A stretch of DNA of 57,481 nucleotides from the NCBI GenBank assembly GCA_017856235.1, contig JAFMFH010000004.1, positions 1-57,481 of the forward strand, in the 5' to 3' direction. Below, in pieces: positions 3,524 to 10,134 of the stretch. A program made the position numbers and the translations under genes. The notes below the pieces were generated by a model. It ran no database searches. It was given only the letters and a program-made list of their open reading frames with translations, and was not told the DNA's origin. Within the stretch, counting starts at the first letter, position 1. Each line of letters starts with the position of its first letter. The DNA is from Flavobacteriaceae bacterium (GTDB taxonomy: Bacteria; Bacteroidota; Bacteroidia; Flavobacteriales; Flavobacteriaceae).

Positions 3524-3751
3524 ATGGGGGATACATTCATTTTTATCATGGGACTAGTATGTACTGGCGCAGTTGTTGCAGCTACATTTTTATCTATAAA
3601 TGAGCTTAAGGATGTCAATGAACCTCAGCTTCAATCAGTTGATATGGCTGAAGGTGCAAGAAAACATTTAAAGCTTATATCAACAGCTATATTAATTATT
3701 ATTGGGTTTGTTTCTTTAGGATTATTTTGTTTTTATTTTATATTTGCCTAA
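3524..3751 (+). CDS. Small membrane protein, function unknown
   Basis: A 75-residue protein with hydrophobic segments at about residues 4-24 and 50-74 and a hydrophilic stretch between (ELKDVNEPQLQSVDMAEGARKH region). No family recognised. It begins directly after the stop of the upstream 57-codon gene and its own TAA ends one base before the ATG of the trp leader peptide, so three reading frames follow one another with zero spacing. Transcripts from an upstream promoter would therefore run into the trp attenuator. Any functional tie to tryptophan is only inferred from position. Confidence 0.6.
   Translation: MGDTFIFIMGLVCTGAVVAATFLSINELKDVNEPQLQSVDMAEGARKHLKLISTAILIIIGFVSLGLFCFYFIFA
3715..3746 (+). 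promoter_or_regulatory. Predicted trp operon promoter
   Basis: A TATATTTG box at 3739-3746 matches the Bacteroidota -7 consensus TAnnTTTG exactly. A TTTA at 3715-3718 lies 20 bases upstream as a 3-of-4 match to the TTTG -33 element. Both lie inside the 3' end of the upstream small membrane gene. The expected start, about 5 bases after the box, falls at or beside the leader-peptide ATG (3752), so the leader mRNA may be leaderless or nearly so. Confidence 0.4.
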
Positions 3752-3796
3752 ATGATTAAAGTTAACACATACTGGTGGTGGATACATGAACTTTAG
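3752..3796 (+). CDS. trpL: trp operon leader peptide with three tandem Trp codons
   Basis: A 14-codon frame encoding MIKVNTYWWWIHEL and ending at TAG 3794-3796. Three consecutive TGG codons (3773-3781) in a 14-residue peptide of an AT-rich genome are very unlikely by chance. The frame lies 58 bases before trpE and is followed by an intrinsic terminator, the arrangement of ribosome-mediated attenuators. A ribosome stalled at the Trp codons would mask 3785-3790 and prevent that segment from pairing with 3799-3804. No Shine-Dalgarno is visible, as expected in Bacteroidota. Confidence 0.88.
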   Translation: MIKVNTYWWWIHEL

Positions 3797-3851
3797 AATT
3801 CGTGAATAAAACTATTATATTATAGCTTGTCTCACGACAGGCTTTTTTTTT
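3785..3851 (+). terminator. trp attenuator: pause hairpin, antiterminator and intrinsic terminator
   Basis: Three mutually exclusive pairings are visible. (1) CATGAA 3785-3790 with TTCGTG 3799-3804, loop of 8. (2) TCGTGA 3800-3805 with TCACGA 3832-3837, the antiterminator. (3) The terminator AGCTTGTC 3824-3831 with GACAGGCT 3836-3843, loop TCAC, one G-T pair, followed by nine T (3843-3851). Pairing 2 uses the terminator loop and two stem bases, so it blocks pairing 3. When Trp is short, a ribosome stalled at 3773-3781 disrupts pairing 1 and frees segment 3800-3805 for antitermination. The U-tract ends four bases before the trpE ATG. Confidence 0.85.
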
Positions 3852-3854
3852 GCT

Positions 3855-5252
3855 ATGAAAATAAAAATTAACACATATCACAAAAAAATTTTTGCAGATA
3901 CAATTACTCCTGTAGAAGTATACCTAAAAATTCGAGATATCTTTCCTAATAGCCTTCTTCTTGAAAACAGTGATTATATGCTAGCAAATAATAATTACTC
4001 ATACATATGCTTTAACCAGATTGGTCATATTAAAATAAAAGATTATGAAGTTGAATGTAAATTCCCTGGAGGGGATTATGAGTTTAAAAAACTAATAAAG
4101 GGCGAAAAAGTTTCAAGTTTAATTCATAATTACATAGAAAAATTTGAGATAGACAATTCAAAATTTAAATTTCTTAATAATGGAATGTTTGGCTTTATGA
4201 GTCATGAATCAATTAAATATTTTGATAGTGTAGAAATAGAAAACAAAAAAGATTTTGATATACCTGACATTTATTATGGGCTATATCAAAATATTATAGC
4301 TATAAGTCAATATAACCATGAAGCTCATCTTTTTTGTAATTCAGTTGATAAGCCATCAAATATTGATACTATTGAAGGTATATTAAATAACAAAAGTTTC
4401 TCAGTATTTAATTTTAAAAAAATTGGTAAATCGGAATCTGAAATTACTGATGAGGAATATATCGAGTACGTCAATAAGGCAAAAGACCATTGTAAAAGAG
4501 GTGACGTCTTTCAACTTGTTTTATCAAGAAGGTATACTCAAAAGTTTAAGGGTGATGAATTCAACGTATACAGAGCTTTAAGATCTATAAATCCTTCTCC
4601 ATATTTATTCTTTTTTGATTATGGTGATTATAAGATTTTTGGAAGCTCACCTGAGGCCCAAATAGTAATTAACAACAGAAAGGCAGAAATACATCCAATC
4701 GCAGGAACATTCAAAAGGACTGGAGATGATGAAAAAGATCAAATCACTGCAAAGGAGTTAGCAAAAGATCCAAAAGAAAATTCCGAACACATAATGCTTG
4801 TAGATCTTGCAAGAAATGATCTTAGTAGAAGTGGGAATAATGTTAAAGTTGAAAAAAATAGAGAGATTCAGTTTTATTCACATGTAATCCATTTAGTGTC
4901 AAAGGTAACTGCAGAATTAAAAGAAGGTATAAAGTCTTATCAGGTTGTAGAAGATACTTTCCCAGCTGGAACACTTTCTGGTGCACCAAAACATAAAGCA
5001 TTAGAACTAATTGAAAAATATGAAAAAGTTAATAGGAACTTCTACGGTGGGGCTATTGGCTTTATTGATTTTAGTGGAAACTTTAATCATGCAATTATTA
5101 TTAGATCATTCTTTAGTAAAAACAATATTTTAAATTATCAAGCTGGTGCAGGAATAGTTATTGATTCAGATCCAGAAAAAGAATTAGAAGAAGTTCAAAA
5201 TAAATTAGGAGCGTTAGATAAAGCTTTAATTGAAGCTGAGTTGATAAAATGA
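3855..5252 (+). CDS. trpE: Anthranilate synthase component I
   Basis: Converts chorismate to anthranilate using ammonia supplied by TrpG, the committed step to tryptophan. At 465 residues it has the usual N-terminal lobe and the C-terminal chorismate-binding domain (about 195-460). Visible conserved blocks are FQLVLSRR, SSPEAQ, HPIAGTFKRTG, LVDLARNDL and AGAGIV. The Trp-binding segment near residue 36 reads LLLENSD. By my alignment the Asn falls where enterobacterial enzymes have the feedback-relevant Ser of LLES. It is the first structural gene after the attenuator and overlaps trpG by 4 bases (ATGA). Confidence 0.96.
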   Translation: MKIKINTYHKKIFADTITPVEVYLKIRDIFPNSLLLENSDYMLANNNYSYICFNQIGHIKIKDYEVECKFPGGDYEFKKLIKGEKVSSLIHNYIEKFEIDNSKFKFLNNGMFGFMSHESIKYFDSVEIENKKDFDIPDIYYGLYQNIIAISQYNHEAHLFCNSVDKPSNIDTIEGILNNKSFSVFNFKKIGKSESEITDEEYIEYVNKAKDHCKRGDVFQLVLSRRYTQKFKGDEFNVYRALRSINPSPYLFFFDYGDYKIFGSSPEAQIVINNRKAEIHPIAGTFKRTGDDEKDQITAKELAKDPKENSEHIMLVDLARNDLSRSGNNVKVEKNREIQFYSHVIHLVSKVTAELKEGIKSYQVVEDTFPAGTLSGAPKHKALELIEKYEKVNRNFYGGAIGFIDFSGNFNHAIIIRSFFSKNNILNYQAGAGIVIDSDPEKELEEVQNKLGALDKALIEAELIK

Positions 5253-5815
5253 AAAAAATTTTTTTAATAGATAATTATGATTCATTCACTTATAATCTTC
5301 TATTTTATTTAGAGGAATTAGGTTGTGAAGTAACAGTAAAAAGAAATGATTTATTCGAGGTTGAGGATATAAAAAATTTTGATGCAATCTTAATTTCACC
5401 TGGACCTGGAATACCATCAGAATCTGGAAAAACTTTAGAGGTTTTGAAGTATTATTCAAAAAGTAAAAATATTTTAGGTGTTTGTCTTGGACAGCAAGCA
5501 ATTGCAGAGGCATTTGGAGGAAAACTTAGAAATTTAGAGAGAGTTTATCATGGAATTGCAAGTAAAATCAACGTAGTAGAAGATGATATAATTTTTGACG
5601 GAATTAAGGGTAAAATTAAAGTTGGTAGATACCACTCTTGGATTGTTGACAAACCAATTCCTGAAAATTTAATTATAACATCTTTAGATAAAAATGGTGA
5701 AATAATGTCATTAAAACATAGAGAATATAATGTAAGAGGTGTTCAATTCCATCCTGAATCTGTTTTAACACCAAAGGGCAAAAAGATGATAAAAAATTGG
5801 GTAAAAAGTATATGA
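5249..5815 (+). CDS. trpG: Anthranilate synthase component II (glutamine amidotransferase)
   Basis: A class I glutamine amidotransferase of 188 residues that releases ammonia from glutamine for TrpE. The catalytic triad is visible: C79 in GVCLGQQ, H168 and E170 in QFHPES. The oxyanion-hole region SPGPGIP lies at about residues 50-56. It overlaps trpE by 4 bases and trpD by 4 bases. It may also serve aminodeoxychorismate synthase (PabA role), as in several bacteria with a single such subunit, but that is not tested here. Confidence 0.95.
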   Translation: MKKIFLIDNYDSFTYNLLFYLEELGCEVTVKRNDLFEVEDIKNFDAILISPGPGIPSESGKTLEVLKYYSKSKNILGVCLGQQAIAEAFGGKLRNLERVYHGIASKINVVEDDIIFDGIKGKIKVGRYHSWIVDKPIPENLIITSLDKNGEIMSLKHREYNVRGVQFHPESVLTPKGKKMIKNWVKSI

Positions 5816-6804
5816 AAGAAATTTTAAATAGACTTACAAATTATGAGACCTTAACTGAAAAGGAAGCTACTGATATTATTATTCAAATTTCAGAGGGCAA
5901 ACTAAATACAAGTGAAATATCTTCATTTCTGACAATCTTTATGATTAGAAATATAACTATTGAAGAATTAAGTGGATTTAGAAAAGCTCTAATTGACTTA
6001 TCATTAAAAATTGACCTTAATGAATTTGACACTATAGACCTATGTGGGACTGGAGGAGATGAAAAAGATACATTCAATATATCAACTTTAGCATCGTTTG
6101 TTACTGCTGGAAGTGGAGTAAAAGTTGCAAAACATGGAAATTATGGTGTTTCATCTAGTTGTGGATCCAGTAATGTACTGGAACATTTAGGTATCAATTT
6201 TACGAATGATTATGATAAAATTAAAAATGCTGTTGATAAAGCAAACATTTGTTTTCTTCATGCTCCATTATTTCATCCTGCAATGAAAAACGTAGCTCCA
6301 GTTAGAAAAGAACTAAGATTAAAAACATTTTTTAATATGCTAGGTCCAATGGTTAATCCATCAATGCCAAAAAAACAGATGGTTGGTGTATATAATTTAG
6401 AACTTGCAAGAATTTATAACTACCTCTATCAGAATACTAATATTGAATATAATATAATTCATGCATTAGATGGATATGATGAGATTTCTCTGACAGGAAA
6501 TACAAAAGTATATTCTAGATCAAATGAGTTTATATTACAATCTAAGGATTTTAATTTAGACGATATAGATGCAGATTTAATTAAAGGGGGGAAGGATGTC
6601 GAATCATCATCTAAGATTTTTATGAGTGTTCTTAATGGTAGTGGATCCAATGAACAAGAAAATGTTGTTTGTGCAAATGCTTCGATGGCTATTTCTCTGT
6701 CAAAAAATGTTTCAATAATTGAGGCTTTTGAAATTGCTAAGGAATCTATTAAGAGTAAGAGTGCATTAAGATGTTTTGAAAAACTTATTGAATTAATGAA
6801 ATGA
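5812..6804 (+). CDS. trpD: Anthranilate phosphoribosyltransferase
   Basis: Transfers phosphoribose from PRPP to anthranilate. The PRPP-binding loop GTGGDEKDTFNIST is present at about residues 78-91, with the KHGNYGVSSSCGSSN anthranilate/PRPP segment following. I place the start at ATG 5812, which overlaps the trpG stop as ATGA and gives 330 residues. An in-frame start at 5797 would add five residues and overlap trpG further. It overlaps trpC by 4 bases. Complete and normal in length. Confidence 0.95.
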   Translation: MKEILNRLTNYETLTEKEATDIIIQISEGKLNTSEISSFLTIFMIRNITIEELSGFRKALIDLSLKIDLNEFDTIDLCGTGGDEKDTFNISTLASFVTAGSGVKVAKHGNYGVSSSCGSSNVLEHLGINFTNDYDKIKNAVDKANICFLHAPLFHPAMKNVAPVRKELRLKTFFNMLGPMVNPSMPKKQMVGVYNLELARIYNYLYQNTNIEYNIIHALDGYDEISLTGNTKVYSRSNEFILQSKDFNLDDIDADLIKGGKDVESSSKIFMSVLNGSGSNEQENVVCANASMAISLSKNVSIIEAFEIAKESIKSKSALRCFEKLIELMK

Positions 6805-7592
6805 AAATTTTAGATAAGATTGTTGCTGATAAAAAAAATGAGATAGATAATTTATCTTCAAAAATACCAATATCTGTTTTGCAAGATAATATTCTATTTT
6901 CTCGAAAATGTATTTCTCTAAAAGAGTCTATATTAAAAAGTTCCAGTGGAATAATATGTGAATTTAAAAGAAGATCTCCCTCCAATGCTAATATAAATTA
7001 CAAATCAACTATTTCAGAAGTTGTTAGAGGATATCAAGAGGCTGGAGCTGCTGGATTATCAATCCTTACAAATAAGAAATATTTTGATGGAAATATTGAG
7101 GATATCATTGAAATAAGAAATTTTGTAGAAATTCCTATTTTACGAAAAGAATTTATAATTAGCGAATATCAAATATTTGAAGCTAAATCAATTGGGGCTG
7201 ACGCAATATTATTAATTGCATCAATTCTTAATTCAGAGGATATTTTGAATTTTAGTTCCTTAGCCAAGAGTCTAGGTCTTGAAGTATTAATTGAGGTACA
7301 CTCCTATGAAGAATTGAAAAAAATATCAGGAAATGATATTGATATAATTGGTGTTAATAATAGAAATCTTGACACCTTAAAGATCGATTTAAACATAAGT
7401 ATTGAGATGTATAAAGAGATTCCTGATGAATTTCTAAAGATATCTGAAAGTGGTATTGATAAGGTTGAATCAATTCTTAAACTTAGAGAAGCTGGCTATC
7501 AAGGATTTTTAATTGGTGAGAATTTTATGAAAAGTAATGATCCAATGGAGGAGGCTTACAAATTTATAAAAGAGGTTGAAAATGAAATTTAA
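6801..7592 (+). CDS. trpC: Indole-3-glycerol phosphate synthase
   Basis: Closes the indole ring from CdRP. It is a 263-residue TIM barrel. The catalytic lysine segment CEFKRRSPS lies at about 51-59, LRKEF at about 113-117, the GVNNRNLDTLKIDL strand near 190-203, SESGI near 215 and the phosphate-binding GENF near 243. It is a stand-alone enzyme, not fused to TrpF as in enterobacteria. ATGA overlap with trpD and an 11-base overlap with trpF. Confidence 0.95.
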   Translation: MKILDKIVADKKNEIDNLSSKIPISVLQDNILFSRKCISLKESILKSSSGIICEFKRRSPSNANINYKSTISEVVRGYQEAGAAGLSILTNKKYFDGNIEDIIEIRNFVEIPILRKEFIISEYQIFEAKSIGADAILLIASILNSEDILNFSSLAKSLGLEVLIEVHSYEELKKISGNDIDIIGVNNRNLDTLKIDLNISIEMYKEIPDEFLKISESGIDKVESILKLREAGYQGFLIGENFMKSNDPMEEAYKFIKEVENEI

Positions 7593-8208
7593 AATTTGTG
7601 GATTATTTGATTATAAAAATATTCAACAAGTAGCTGAATTAAATCCTGATTACATCGGTCATATTTTTTGGGAAAAATCTGTAAGGTATGTAAAGACTAA
7701 AACTCCAAACTTTAAATCTGAAATAAAAAAAACTGGTGTTTTTTTTAACTCAAATTTTGATGTTATAAATGACAAAGTATCAAAACATAATTTAGCTTGT
7801 GTTCAATTACATGGAGATGAGTCACCAGAATTTTGTAAAAAAATATTAGATAGCGGGATTCAAGTTATCAAGTCATTTAGAATTGATGATAAATTTGATT
7901 TTGGTGTTTTAAAAAATTATGAAGACTATTGTGACATGTTTTTATTTGATTCAAAATCAGAACTTCCTGGAGGAACTGGCATATCATTTAACTGGGAGAA
8001 TTTAAAAAAATATAATTTAAAAAAGGGTTTTTTTATCAGTGGTGGTATAGGGCTTCACTCTATTGATTCACTATTTGATCTTTTAAAAATGGGTCTTCCT
8101 ATTTATGGTATAGACATCAATAGTAAATTTGAGGACGACAACTATTTAAAAAAAATTGATGAATTAAAAACTTTTATAGAAACAATTAAAAATGAAATAT
8201 ACAGTTGA
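7582..8208 (+). CDS. trpF: Phosphoribosylanthranilate isomerase
   Basis: Isomerises phosphoribosylanthranilate to CdRP. It begins MKFKICGLF, giving the catalytic cysteine in KICG. The other catalytic block, LFDSKSELPGGTG, is near residue 125. ISGGI near 155 contributes to phosphate binding. ATG 7582 gives 208 residues and is preferred to a TTG two codons earlier. It overlaps trpC by 11 bases and trpB by 17 bases, indicating coupled translation. Confidence 0.93.
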   Translation: MKFKICGLFDYKNIQQVAELNPDYIGHIFWEKSVRYVKTKTPNFKSEIKKTGVFFNSNFDVINDKVSKHNLACVQLHGDESPEFCKKILDSGIQVIKSFRIDDKFDFGVLKNYEDYCDMFLFDSKSELPGGTGISFNWENLKKYNLKKGFFISGGIGLHSIDSLFDLLKMGLPIYGIDINSKFEDDNYLKKIDELKTFIETIKNEIYS

Positions 8209-9373
8209 CAAAAAAGGGTTTTATGGTAACTATGGAGGTGCGTTTGTACCTGAAATGCTATTTCCAAACCTTGACGAATTAGAAAAAAACTATATCAAGA
8301 TTATAAATGATACTGATTTCCAAAATGATTATAATAACCTTTTAAAGGACTACGTAGGAAGACCAACTCCGCTATATTTTGCTGAAAGAATGTCAGGTAA
8401 ATATAAATGTAAAATATATTTTAAAAGAGAAGACTTGTGTCATACAGGAGCTCATAAAATAAATAACACCGTTGGTCAAATTTTACTAGCAAAAAGATTA
8501 GGAAAGAAAAGAATCATTGCTGAAACCGGTGCTGGTCAACATGGAGTTGCCACTGCAACTGTTTGTGCTTTAGCTGGAATTGAATGTGTAATATATATGG
8601 GAGCTATTGATATCAAAAGACAAGCTCCTAATGTTGCTAGAATGAAAATGCTAGGAGCAAGTGTAATTGCAGCTGAATCTGGGAGCAAAACTCTTAAGGA
8701 TGCTACTAATGAAGCTATTAGAGATTGGATAAATAATCCTATTACAACGCACTACATTATTGGATCAGTTGTTGGTCCTCATCCTTATCCTGATATGGTT
8801 GCTAAATTTCAATCAATAGTTTCTAAAGAGATAAAGTCTCAGTTAATTGAAAAAGAAGGAACTGATAGTCCAGATTATCTAATAGCTAATATTGGAGGTG
8901 GAAGTAATGCTGCTGGATTATATTATCATTATTTAGAAGACGAGAAAGTAAAAATTATTTCAGTTGAAGCAGCTGGTGAAGGTATTGAGTCTGGAAAAAG
9001 TGCTGCTACATCAGTTCTTGGTAAAACTGGAATTATTCATGGAAGTAAAACTCTTTTAATGCAAACTAAGGATGGTCAAATAGTCGAGCCTTACTCCATA
9101 TCAGCTGGTTTAGATTATCCAGGCGTTGGTCCACTTCATGCACATTTATTAGAAAGCAAAAGAGCAGAGTTTATGTCGATAACAGATAGTGATGCTATGC
9201 TAGCAGGATTAGAAGTCTCTAAACTAGAAGGGATTATTCCTGCAATAGAAACTGCTCATGCATTTGCTGCATTTAAGTATTTGAATTTTAAACCAAATGA
9301 TATAATTGTTGTTAACTTCTCTGGAAGAGGAGATAAAGACTTAAATACTTACATTGATTATTTTAAATTATAA
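8192..9373 (+). CDS. trpB: Tryptophan synthase beta chain
   Basis: PLP enzyme joining indole and serine to give tryptophan. It has 393 residues, the standard length for TrpB1. The PLP lysine is K89 in HTGAHKINN and the catalytic glutamate is E111 in AETGAGQHG. The phosphate-binding loop GGGSNA lies near residue 233. The N-terminal segment YGGAFVPEML is typical of TrpB1, the form that pairs with TrpA. The 17-base overlap with trpF and 1-base overlap with trpA place it firmly in the operon. Confidence 0.97.
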   Translation: MKYTVDKKGFYGNYGGAFVPEMLFPNLDELEKNYIKIINDTDFQNDYNNLLKDYVGRPTPLYFAERMSGKYKCKIYFKREDLCHTGAHKINNTVGQILLAKRLGKKRIIAETGAGQHGVATATVCALAGIECVIYMGAIDIKRQAPNVARMKMLGASVIAAESGSKTLKDATNEAIRDWINNPITTHYIIGSVVGPHPYPDMVAKFQSIVSKEIKSQLIEKEGTDSPDYLIANIGGGSNAAGLYYHYLEDEKVKIISVEAAGEGIESGKSAATSVLGKTGIIHGSKTLLMQTKDGQIVEPYSISAGLDYPGVGPLHAHLLESKRAEFMSITDSDAMLAGLEVSKLEGIIPAIETAHAFAAFKYLNFKPNDIIVVNFSGRGDKDLNTYIDYFKL

Positions 9374-10134
9374 TGAATAGAATTGACAAAAAATTAAAAG
9401 AAGAAGGCAAACTGTTGTCAATATATTTTACAGCAGGATATCCTAGTTTAGATGATACAGTTGATATTATTTTTAAGCTTCAGGAATCTGGTGTTGATAT
9501 GATAGAGATAGGACTACCTTTTAGTGATCCACTTGCTGATGGTCCTACAATTCAAGATAGCTCTACAAAAGCAATTAAAAATGGAATGAACACTAATGTC
9601 CTATTTGATCAACTAAAAGGGATTAGGGATAAAGTTTCAATTCCTTTAATAATAATGGGATATTTTAACCCTATCCTTCAGTATGGTGTAGAAGACTTTT
9701 GTAAAAAATGTAATGAAATTGGAATTGATGGATTAATCATTCCTGACTTACCAATTGACTATTATGAAGCAAATTATAAATCAATATTTGAAGAAAATCA
9801 TCTTTATAATATGTTTTTAATAGCTCCACAAACTTCAGATGAAAGAATAAGAAAGATTGACTCTATATCTAATGGTTTTATATATATGGTAAGCTCTTCT
9901 AGTATAACTGGATCAAAAAATTCCTTTAGCCCTGATCAAATAAATTATTTTGAAAGAATTGAAAAAATGAATCTAAAAACTCCTAGAATAATTGGTTTTG
10001 GAGTTGGAAACAAAAAGACATTTAATTCTGTCGTAAAATATTCTAAGGGAGCGATAATTGGATCTGCATTTATAAAAAATCTATATGAGCATGGAATTGA
10101 TTCAATTCCTTCATACATAGGTTCAATTAGATAA
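9373..10134 (+). CDS. trpA: Tryptophan synthase alpha chain
   Basis: Cleaves indole-3-glycerol phosphate and channels indole to TrpB. It is a 253-residue TIM barrel with the catalytic residues E45 (MIEIGLPFSDP) and D56 (LADGPTIQ). The flexible loop 6 region SSSSITGSKNSF near 173-184 closes the active site. Its ATG overlaps the trpB stop by one base (TAATG). menG follows after a single base, so the transcript continues past trpA. Confidence 0.96.
   Translation: MNRIDKKLKEEGKLLSIYFTAGYPSLDDTVDIIFKLQESGVDMIEIGLPFSDPLADGPTIQDSSTKAIKNGMNTNVLFDQLKGIRDKVSIPLIIMGYFNPILQYGVEDFCKKCNEIGIDGLIIPDLPIDYYEANYKSIFEENHLYNMFLIAPQTSDERIRKIDSISNGFIYMVSSSSITGSKNSFSPDQINYFERIEKMNLKTPRIIGFGVGNKKTFNSVVKYSKGAIIGSAFIKNLYEHGIDSIPSYIGSIR

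Follow-up and report, generated by a model that had tools for sequence, protein, structure and literature searches.

The window, a stretch of 57,481 nucleotides from contig JAFMFH010000004.1 (assembly GCA_017856235.1), carries an intact trp operon in the order trpE-G-D-C-F-B-A, which ends at position 10134 and lies downstream of a putative attenuator. The assembly to which the window belongs comprises 1.2 Mb and is 92% complete. The family referred to below is taken to be Flavobacteriaceae, and these bacteria are presumably marine. The following features were located at the start of the operon:

3524-3751, plus strand: small ORF of 75 amino acids; its stop codon TAA is directly followed by the ATG of the leader, and the ORF includes the predicted -7 box
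3739-3746, plus strand: predicted -7 box TATATTTG, an exact match to the Bacteroidota box TAnnTTTG as given in PMC9723704; predicted transcription start at 3751
3752-3796, plus strand: leader ORF, MIKVNTYWWWIHEL followed by TAG, read from the sequence; ATG at 3752, 14 codons, stop codon at 3794-3796; tandem-Trp leader in 17/17 testable loci of the genus
3773-3781, plus strand: TGG TGG TGG, the three Trp codons of the putative sensor; 3773-3779 double as a strand of the lower protector helix
3785-3790, plus strand: region 1, CATGAA; partner 3799-3804
3799-3805, plus strand: region 2, T-TCGTGA; 3799-3804 pair with region 1, 3800-3805 with region 3
3811-3817, plus strand: ACTATTA, 3' strand of the lower protector helix formed with the Trp codons
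3824-3851, plus strand: intrinsic terminator; stem 3824-3831/3836-3843, loop 3832-3835, T run 3843-3851
3832-3837, plus strand: region 3, TCACGA, consisting of the terminator loop and the first two bases of the 3' arm; partner 3800-3805
3855-5252, plus strand: trpE, anthranilate synthase component I, first gene of the operon (NCBIfam and Pfam matches)
5249-10134, plus strand: trpG, trpD, trpC, trpF, trpB and trpA, the remaining operon (NCBIfam and Pfam matches)

The frame, the Trp codons, the terminator, the mutually exclusive helices, their spacing and the operon were read directly in the DNA. The 14-codon frame with TGG TGG TGG was present at the coordinates claimed for it in the preliminary description, and the terminator was present exactly as described there, with an 8-bp stem (AGCTTGTC, 3824-3831, with GACAGGCT, 3836-3843, one of the pairs being G-U) and nine T (3843-3851) between the leader ORF and trpE. 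The competing hairpin was also found where it had been placed; in this helix 1:2, CATGAA (3785-3790) pairs with TTCGTG (3799-3804) by six pairs, including one G-U. Helix 2:3 consists of six Watson-Crick pairs between TCGTGA (3800-3805) and TCACGA (3832-3837) and is exclusive with the terminator. While its placement was confirmed, the extent to which it breaks the terminator is limited, as it takes up only the top two of the eight stem pairs and finds its other four partners in the loop. Switching helices of 6 bp were likewise confirmed, but the predicted ribosome-free fold adds a lower helix and is one long hairpin, in which the Trp codons (3773-3779) pair with 3811-3817 and, above these, 3785-3790 with 3799-3804. 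The compact design that had been claimed is only modestly so, with 92 bases from ATG to terminator end compared with 108 in E. coli trpL.

The small ORF at 3524-3751 was without a match in NCBIfam or Pfam. The N-termini of the leader (MIKVNTY, 3752-3772) and of TrpE (MKIKINTY, 3855-3878) are alike, and their DNA shares TTAACACATA; N-T-Y words resembling these starts recur in several loci of the genus, not in all of them. Reuse of a generic terminator within the window was considered and rejected, the core of the terminator occurring there once without mismatch.

Recurrence of the leader and terminator before trpE

Homologous trpE loci were collected from 60 relatives (30 loci kept), from the best 80 matches of a genome-contig scan and from a phylum sample of 392 genomes. 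From the latter, 99 loci with E <= 4e-122 were used, not counting that of the window, together with 12 loci of weaker match; the remaining weaker loci, including G389 at the end of a contig (E 2.8e-118), were left out. A tandem-Trp leader was defined as a frame that has two or more Trp codons in tandem, is no longer than 45 codons and lies within 400 bases upstream of trpE. Before counting, L009, L038 and L091 were dropped on account of their short upstream sequence, as were L031-L044, which by match coordinates and identity repeated genomes of the 60-relative set.

Conserved tandem Trp codons in homologous leaders were a check set beforehand, and they were found: a tandem-Trp leader preceded trpE in all 17 testable loci of the genus, in 9 of 9 other relatives, in 61 of 65 contig-scan loci, in 91 of 99 phylum-sample loci and in 8 of 12 weaker loci, compared with 3 of 202 reverse-complement controls. 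It was absent from 8 of the 99 phylum-sample loci. The 16 loci without such a leader (L047, L048, L098, L103, L164, L165, L178, L189, L200, L201, L202, L204, L207, L209, L213 and L216) were excluded from later counts. In the leaders of L208 and L181 the word WLWWWH was observed, that is four Trp codons with Leu between.

A hairpin of -10 kcal/mol or lower with a T run was located behind the Trp codons in 180 of 186 leaders and in 0 of 40 shuffles. Five loci in which the terminator was not found (L019, L020, L065, L184 and L217) were also excluded from later counts. An alignment of the genus was made from 16 of its 17 loci, L011 being omitted as it contains N, and in these 16 rows 100% of the terminator stem cells were paired.

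Predicted transcription start and initiation at the leader

According to PMC9723704, the -7 box TAnnTTTG of Bacteroidota lies at -12 to -5. As TATATTTG occupies 3739-3746, transcription is predicted to start at 3751, and the leader mRNA would be nearly leaderless, beginning at or next to the ATG. Leaderless mRNAs account for 5.5% in F. psychrophilum according to the same paper, and about 3.7% of the 5' UTRs of B. thetaiotaomicron are shorter than 10 nt (PMC7366714).

In 17 of 17 genus loci, the leader start codon was preceded by an exact box at a gap of 4, 5 or 7 bases. Among all 186 loci, with start codons picked without regard to the box, an exact box occurred at a gap of 4-11 in 95 (58 of these at 4-5) and at a gap of 0-3 in none. 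A box at a gap of 12-22 was found in 36 loci, 28 of them in the family. By comparison, other ORFs of the window with at least 120 codons had a box at 4-11 in 2 of 51 cases.

The same attenuator could also be served by coupling: the transcript would begin at a more distant upstream site, and ribosomes that finish the small ORF at its TAA would restart at the adjoining ATG. We consider this somewhat unlikely, though a serious alternative. The TAA (3749-3751) indeed touches the ATG (3752), and no clear -33 element was recognized by eye at the usual distance. Moreover, 21 sites of the genome have TATATTTG followed by 3-8 bases and ATG, as against 8 in the reversed control, so that the box alone proves nothing. 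Coupling is opposed by the exact box 4-11 bases upstream of the leader start in the 95 loci, which are spread through the phylum, lie mostly outside the genus and differ in their upstream sequence.

Helices of the leader RNA and the proposed switch

In the window itself, helix 1:2 of the putative protector hairpin was only modestly unusual against shuffles (p 0.065). It reached p 0.05 in 11 of the 17 loci of the genus but rarely elsewhere, namely in 2 of 8 other relatives, 11 of 89 loci of the phylum sample, 1 of 59 contig-scan loci and 1 of 6 weaker loci. In the 16 genus rows, 95.5% of the cells of the lower helix and 82.6% of those of helix 1:2 were paired, and the pairing of the lower helix fell to 19-66% when its partner strand was slid by 1-3 columns. 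Within these rows all changes in the helices were one-sided, and two-sided changes were found in none of them. Neither helix was in excess of column shuffles, and as the shuffles equalled or exceeded the observed pairing and covariation in the count that included helix 1:2, this count provides no evidence for covariation. An alignment joining the genus and its relatives was omitted from the pair counts, since the register of helix 1:2 differs between them. In 30 other loci of the family, which were hand-picked for one shared register and thus favour the structure counted there, the outer 1:2 pair was U-A in 19, C-G in 9 and A-U in 2.

Helix 2:3 was modestly unusual in the window (p 0.03 against shuffles). 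Pairing of region 2 to the terminator hairpin reached p <= 0.05 in 79 of 181 loci, including 7 of the 17 in the genus; independent loci, which these are not, would give about 9 of the 181. There is almost no variation of this helix within the genus, where 100% of the cells are paired and a single pair varies, on one side only. When regions 2 and hairpins of all loci were cross-paired at random, a mean fraction of 0.256 of the foreign hairpins was as good, and 0 of 16 genus loci came to 0.1 or below; since identical loops in many hairpins make this control a weak one, a cross-clade control was used. With region 2 of 69 family loci against the hairpins of 112 loci of other families, the median fraction of equally good pairings was 0.045, and with region 2 of these 112 loci against the family hairpins it was 0.014. 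A total of 58 distinct helix 2:3 sequences was present among 112 loci at p 0.10, for example TCGTGA/TCACGA, CGGGGTTC/GAACCCCG, TCAAAGTCTT/AAGACTTTGA and GTGAACAGC/GCTGTTCAC. Between clades, matching changes on the two strands maintain the putative antiterminator helix. As for compensatory changes in homologs, they were found in the match of region 2 to the terminator between clades and in the one 1:2 pair that changes on both sides in other family loci, and were lacking within the genus, where no change was two-sided.

Region 2 followed the last Trp codon at a median distance of 17 bases, with quartiles of 14-18 (loci at p 0.10), and at 18 bases in the window. Given the usual footprint of a ribosome, region 2 should stay accessible during stalling at the Trp codons and be masked once the stop codon is reached. 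In 91 of 112 loci, the start of region 2 fell within the range from 13 bases before to 9 bases after the end of the stop codon. In 8 of the 112 it lay 27-31 bases before that end, where a ribosome at the stop would hardly cover it, and these loci depart from the simple scheme. For L070, L079, L081, L088 and L170 this distance is 31 bases, so that a ribosome finishing at the stop codon should miss region 2.

The target of region 2 differed between families. All 17 genus loci, and 61 of the 69 loci of the family, have an antiterminator of the loop type, in which region 2 pairs with the loop and the top of the 3' arm. Among the 112 loci of other families, 83 were of the 5'-arm type and 14 of the loop type. 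Calculated energies were -4.7 kcal/mol for the antiterminator alone and -10.4 kcal/mol for the terminator, and as soon as the 3' arm was free in full, the terminator was the minimum-energy fold of every state. If 14 bases of RNA are assumed to be hidden in the polymerase, region 3 is wholly free only with the polymerase near 3851, the end of the T run. Folding without a ribosome also passes through helix 2:3. In our reading, antitermination would consist in the capture of the terminator loop and the nucleating top pairs.

Taken as a whole, the locus is very probably a ribosome-mediated transcription attenuator of the trp operon and a divergent member of the Bacteroid-trp RNA (RF01692). The E. 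coli type of ribosome-mediated trp attenuation that had been proposed is supported by the Trp codons and by the cross-clade match of helix and terminator, and very probably works as had been claimed. Weighing against this reading are the low stability of the antiterminator, the fold that passes through helix 2:3 even without a ribosome, the lack of two-sided changes in the genus, the rarity of helix 1:2 elsewhere, the 8 loci with a distant region 2 and the 8 phylum-sample loci lacking the leader. For the start site, the stalling, the folding order and the response to tryptophan, we infer the following course. Transcription would start at or next to the leader ATG. With plentiful Trp-tRNA, the ribosome would reach the stop codon (3794-3796) and cover region 2 (3800-3805), and the terminator would end transcription before trpE. 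With scarce Trp-tRNA, it would stall on 3773-3781 and open the protector hairpin of Trp codons and region 1. The freed region 2 could then pair with 3832-3837 as these bases leave the RNA polymerase, which would hinder nucleation of the terminator and allow trpE-A to be transcribed.

Tentatively, and with somewhat less than even confidence, we propose that the trp attenuators of the family, including that of the window, are a distinct version of this switch. Their mRNA would begin at or next to the start codon, and an antiterminator of 6-7 pairs would act by capturing the terminator loop and the nucleating pairs at the top of the stem, not the 5' arm, when these emerge from the RNA polymerase. 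The target would have moved in evolution, while the Trp sensor and the spacing stayed.

The pairing of region 2 with the loop might instead form a pseudoknot on an intact lower terminator stem, real antitermination being brought about otherwise, for example by steric hindrance in the exit channel or by a longer alternative helix. The pairing leaves six of the eight terminator pairs free, and the 2-base link (3830-3831) beside a 6-pair helix would be compatible with the geometry of a pseudoknot. It is also generally known, however, that the top pairs are the usual site of hairpin nucleation, and a 5'-arm antiterminator occurs at the same place in other families; we therefore regard a pseudoknot of this kind as unlikely. 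It is highly improbable that the leader ORF is fortuitous and the hairpin merely the terminator of the upstream small ORF, as might be suggested by the short helices and the modest shuffle values of the window (0.03 and 0.065), in view of the phylum-wide recurrence before trpE, the cross-clade complementarity and the match to RF01692. Because the leader recurs (17/17 and 91/99 as against 3/202), the terminator is present in 180/186 and helix 2:3 is matched between clades, the predicted leader and terminator before trpE are more than chance.

A search for sister attenuators gave no match to HisG in the window's own, 92% complete assembly, and none was seen by eye before ilvD or thrA of the same genome.

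Comparison with known trp leaders

At gathering scores, Rfam yielded only two tRNAs in the window; a tRNA on the minus strand at 1-62 is cut by the window's end. With relaxed thresholds, RF01692 (Bacteroid-trp) matched the window with 36.2 bits (E 0.0053), below its cut-off of 49. The alignment ran end to end, with model positions 1-131 at 3732-3847, upstream of the trp genes. The cut-off was passed by 0 of 17 genus loci and by 20 of the 20 best-matching other loci of the same family. In a mixed set, 1 of 19 loci of other families passed (L170, of the same order) and the family locus L185 failed; in a further set, 2 of 3 family loci reached the cut-off (L139 and L190, not L177) and 0 of 17 others. 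Judged by its sequence, the window contains a genuine divergent relative of RF01692 that the model misses and not a formal Rfam member, because the match is of full length and upstream of trp genes but has 36.2 instead of 49 bits. The Bacteroid-trp family is probably much wider than its model, since leaders stand before 91 of 99 sampled trpE genes while RF01692 passes only 1 of 19 loci of other families.

RF01692 is listed in Table 1 of Weinberg and others 2010 (PMC2864571) as the Bacteroidete tryptophan peptide leader RNA. It has in common with the window the place before the trp operon, the Trp codons and a long hairpin that pairs the Trp codons beyond region 2. The model stops at the GGCUUGUC of the terminator and does not itself contain the terminator. 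In F. psychrophilum, a Bacteroid-Trp RNA before the trp operon was likened to E. coli (PMC6414381), and strong indications of attenuation by leader peptides upstream of amino acid operons were described (PMC9723704). The mechanism and the RNA family are already on record for these bacteria, as a tryptophan leader RNA or as leader-peptide attenuation, by RF01692 and the two Flavobacterium papers.

A description of a leaderless trp leader or of loop-capture antitermination in Bacteroidota was not found in the open-access papers searched, supplements aside. Apparently new are therefore the -7 box 4-7 bases upstream of the leader start (17/17 genus loci) and the loop/3'-arm antiterminator (61/69 family loci). 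In Sinorhizobium meliloti, according to PMC7298713, the trp leader RNA begins with the ATG of trpL and encodes a leader peptide of 14 amino acids; the same start is predicted here within about a base, in a different phylum.

The window reached 15.4 bits with RF00513 (Trp_leader, E. coli type), below the cut-off of 41. E. coli trpL has the Trp-codon leader and regions 1 to 4 in common with the window, and its spacing from the Trp codons to region 2 is similar, with 14 bases compared with 18 here. By the same reading, region 3 of E. coli is the 5' arm of the terminator, whereas in the window it is the loop and the 3' arm. These leaders appear to form a natural series in which the sensor and its spacing are constant, and the placement of the start codon and the target of the antiterminator vary. 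If loop capture is true, it would represent an antiterminator of minimal size and would allow one to test up to what point the formation of a nascent hairpin can still be prevented.
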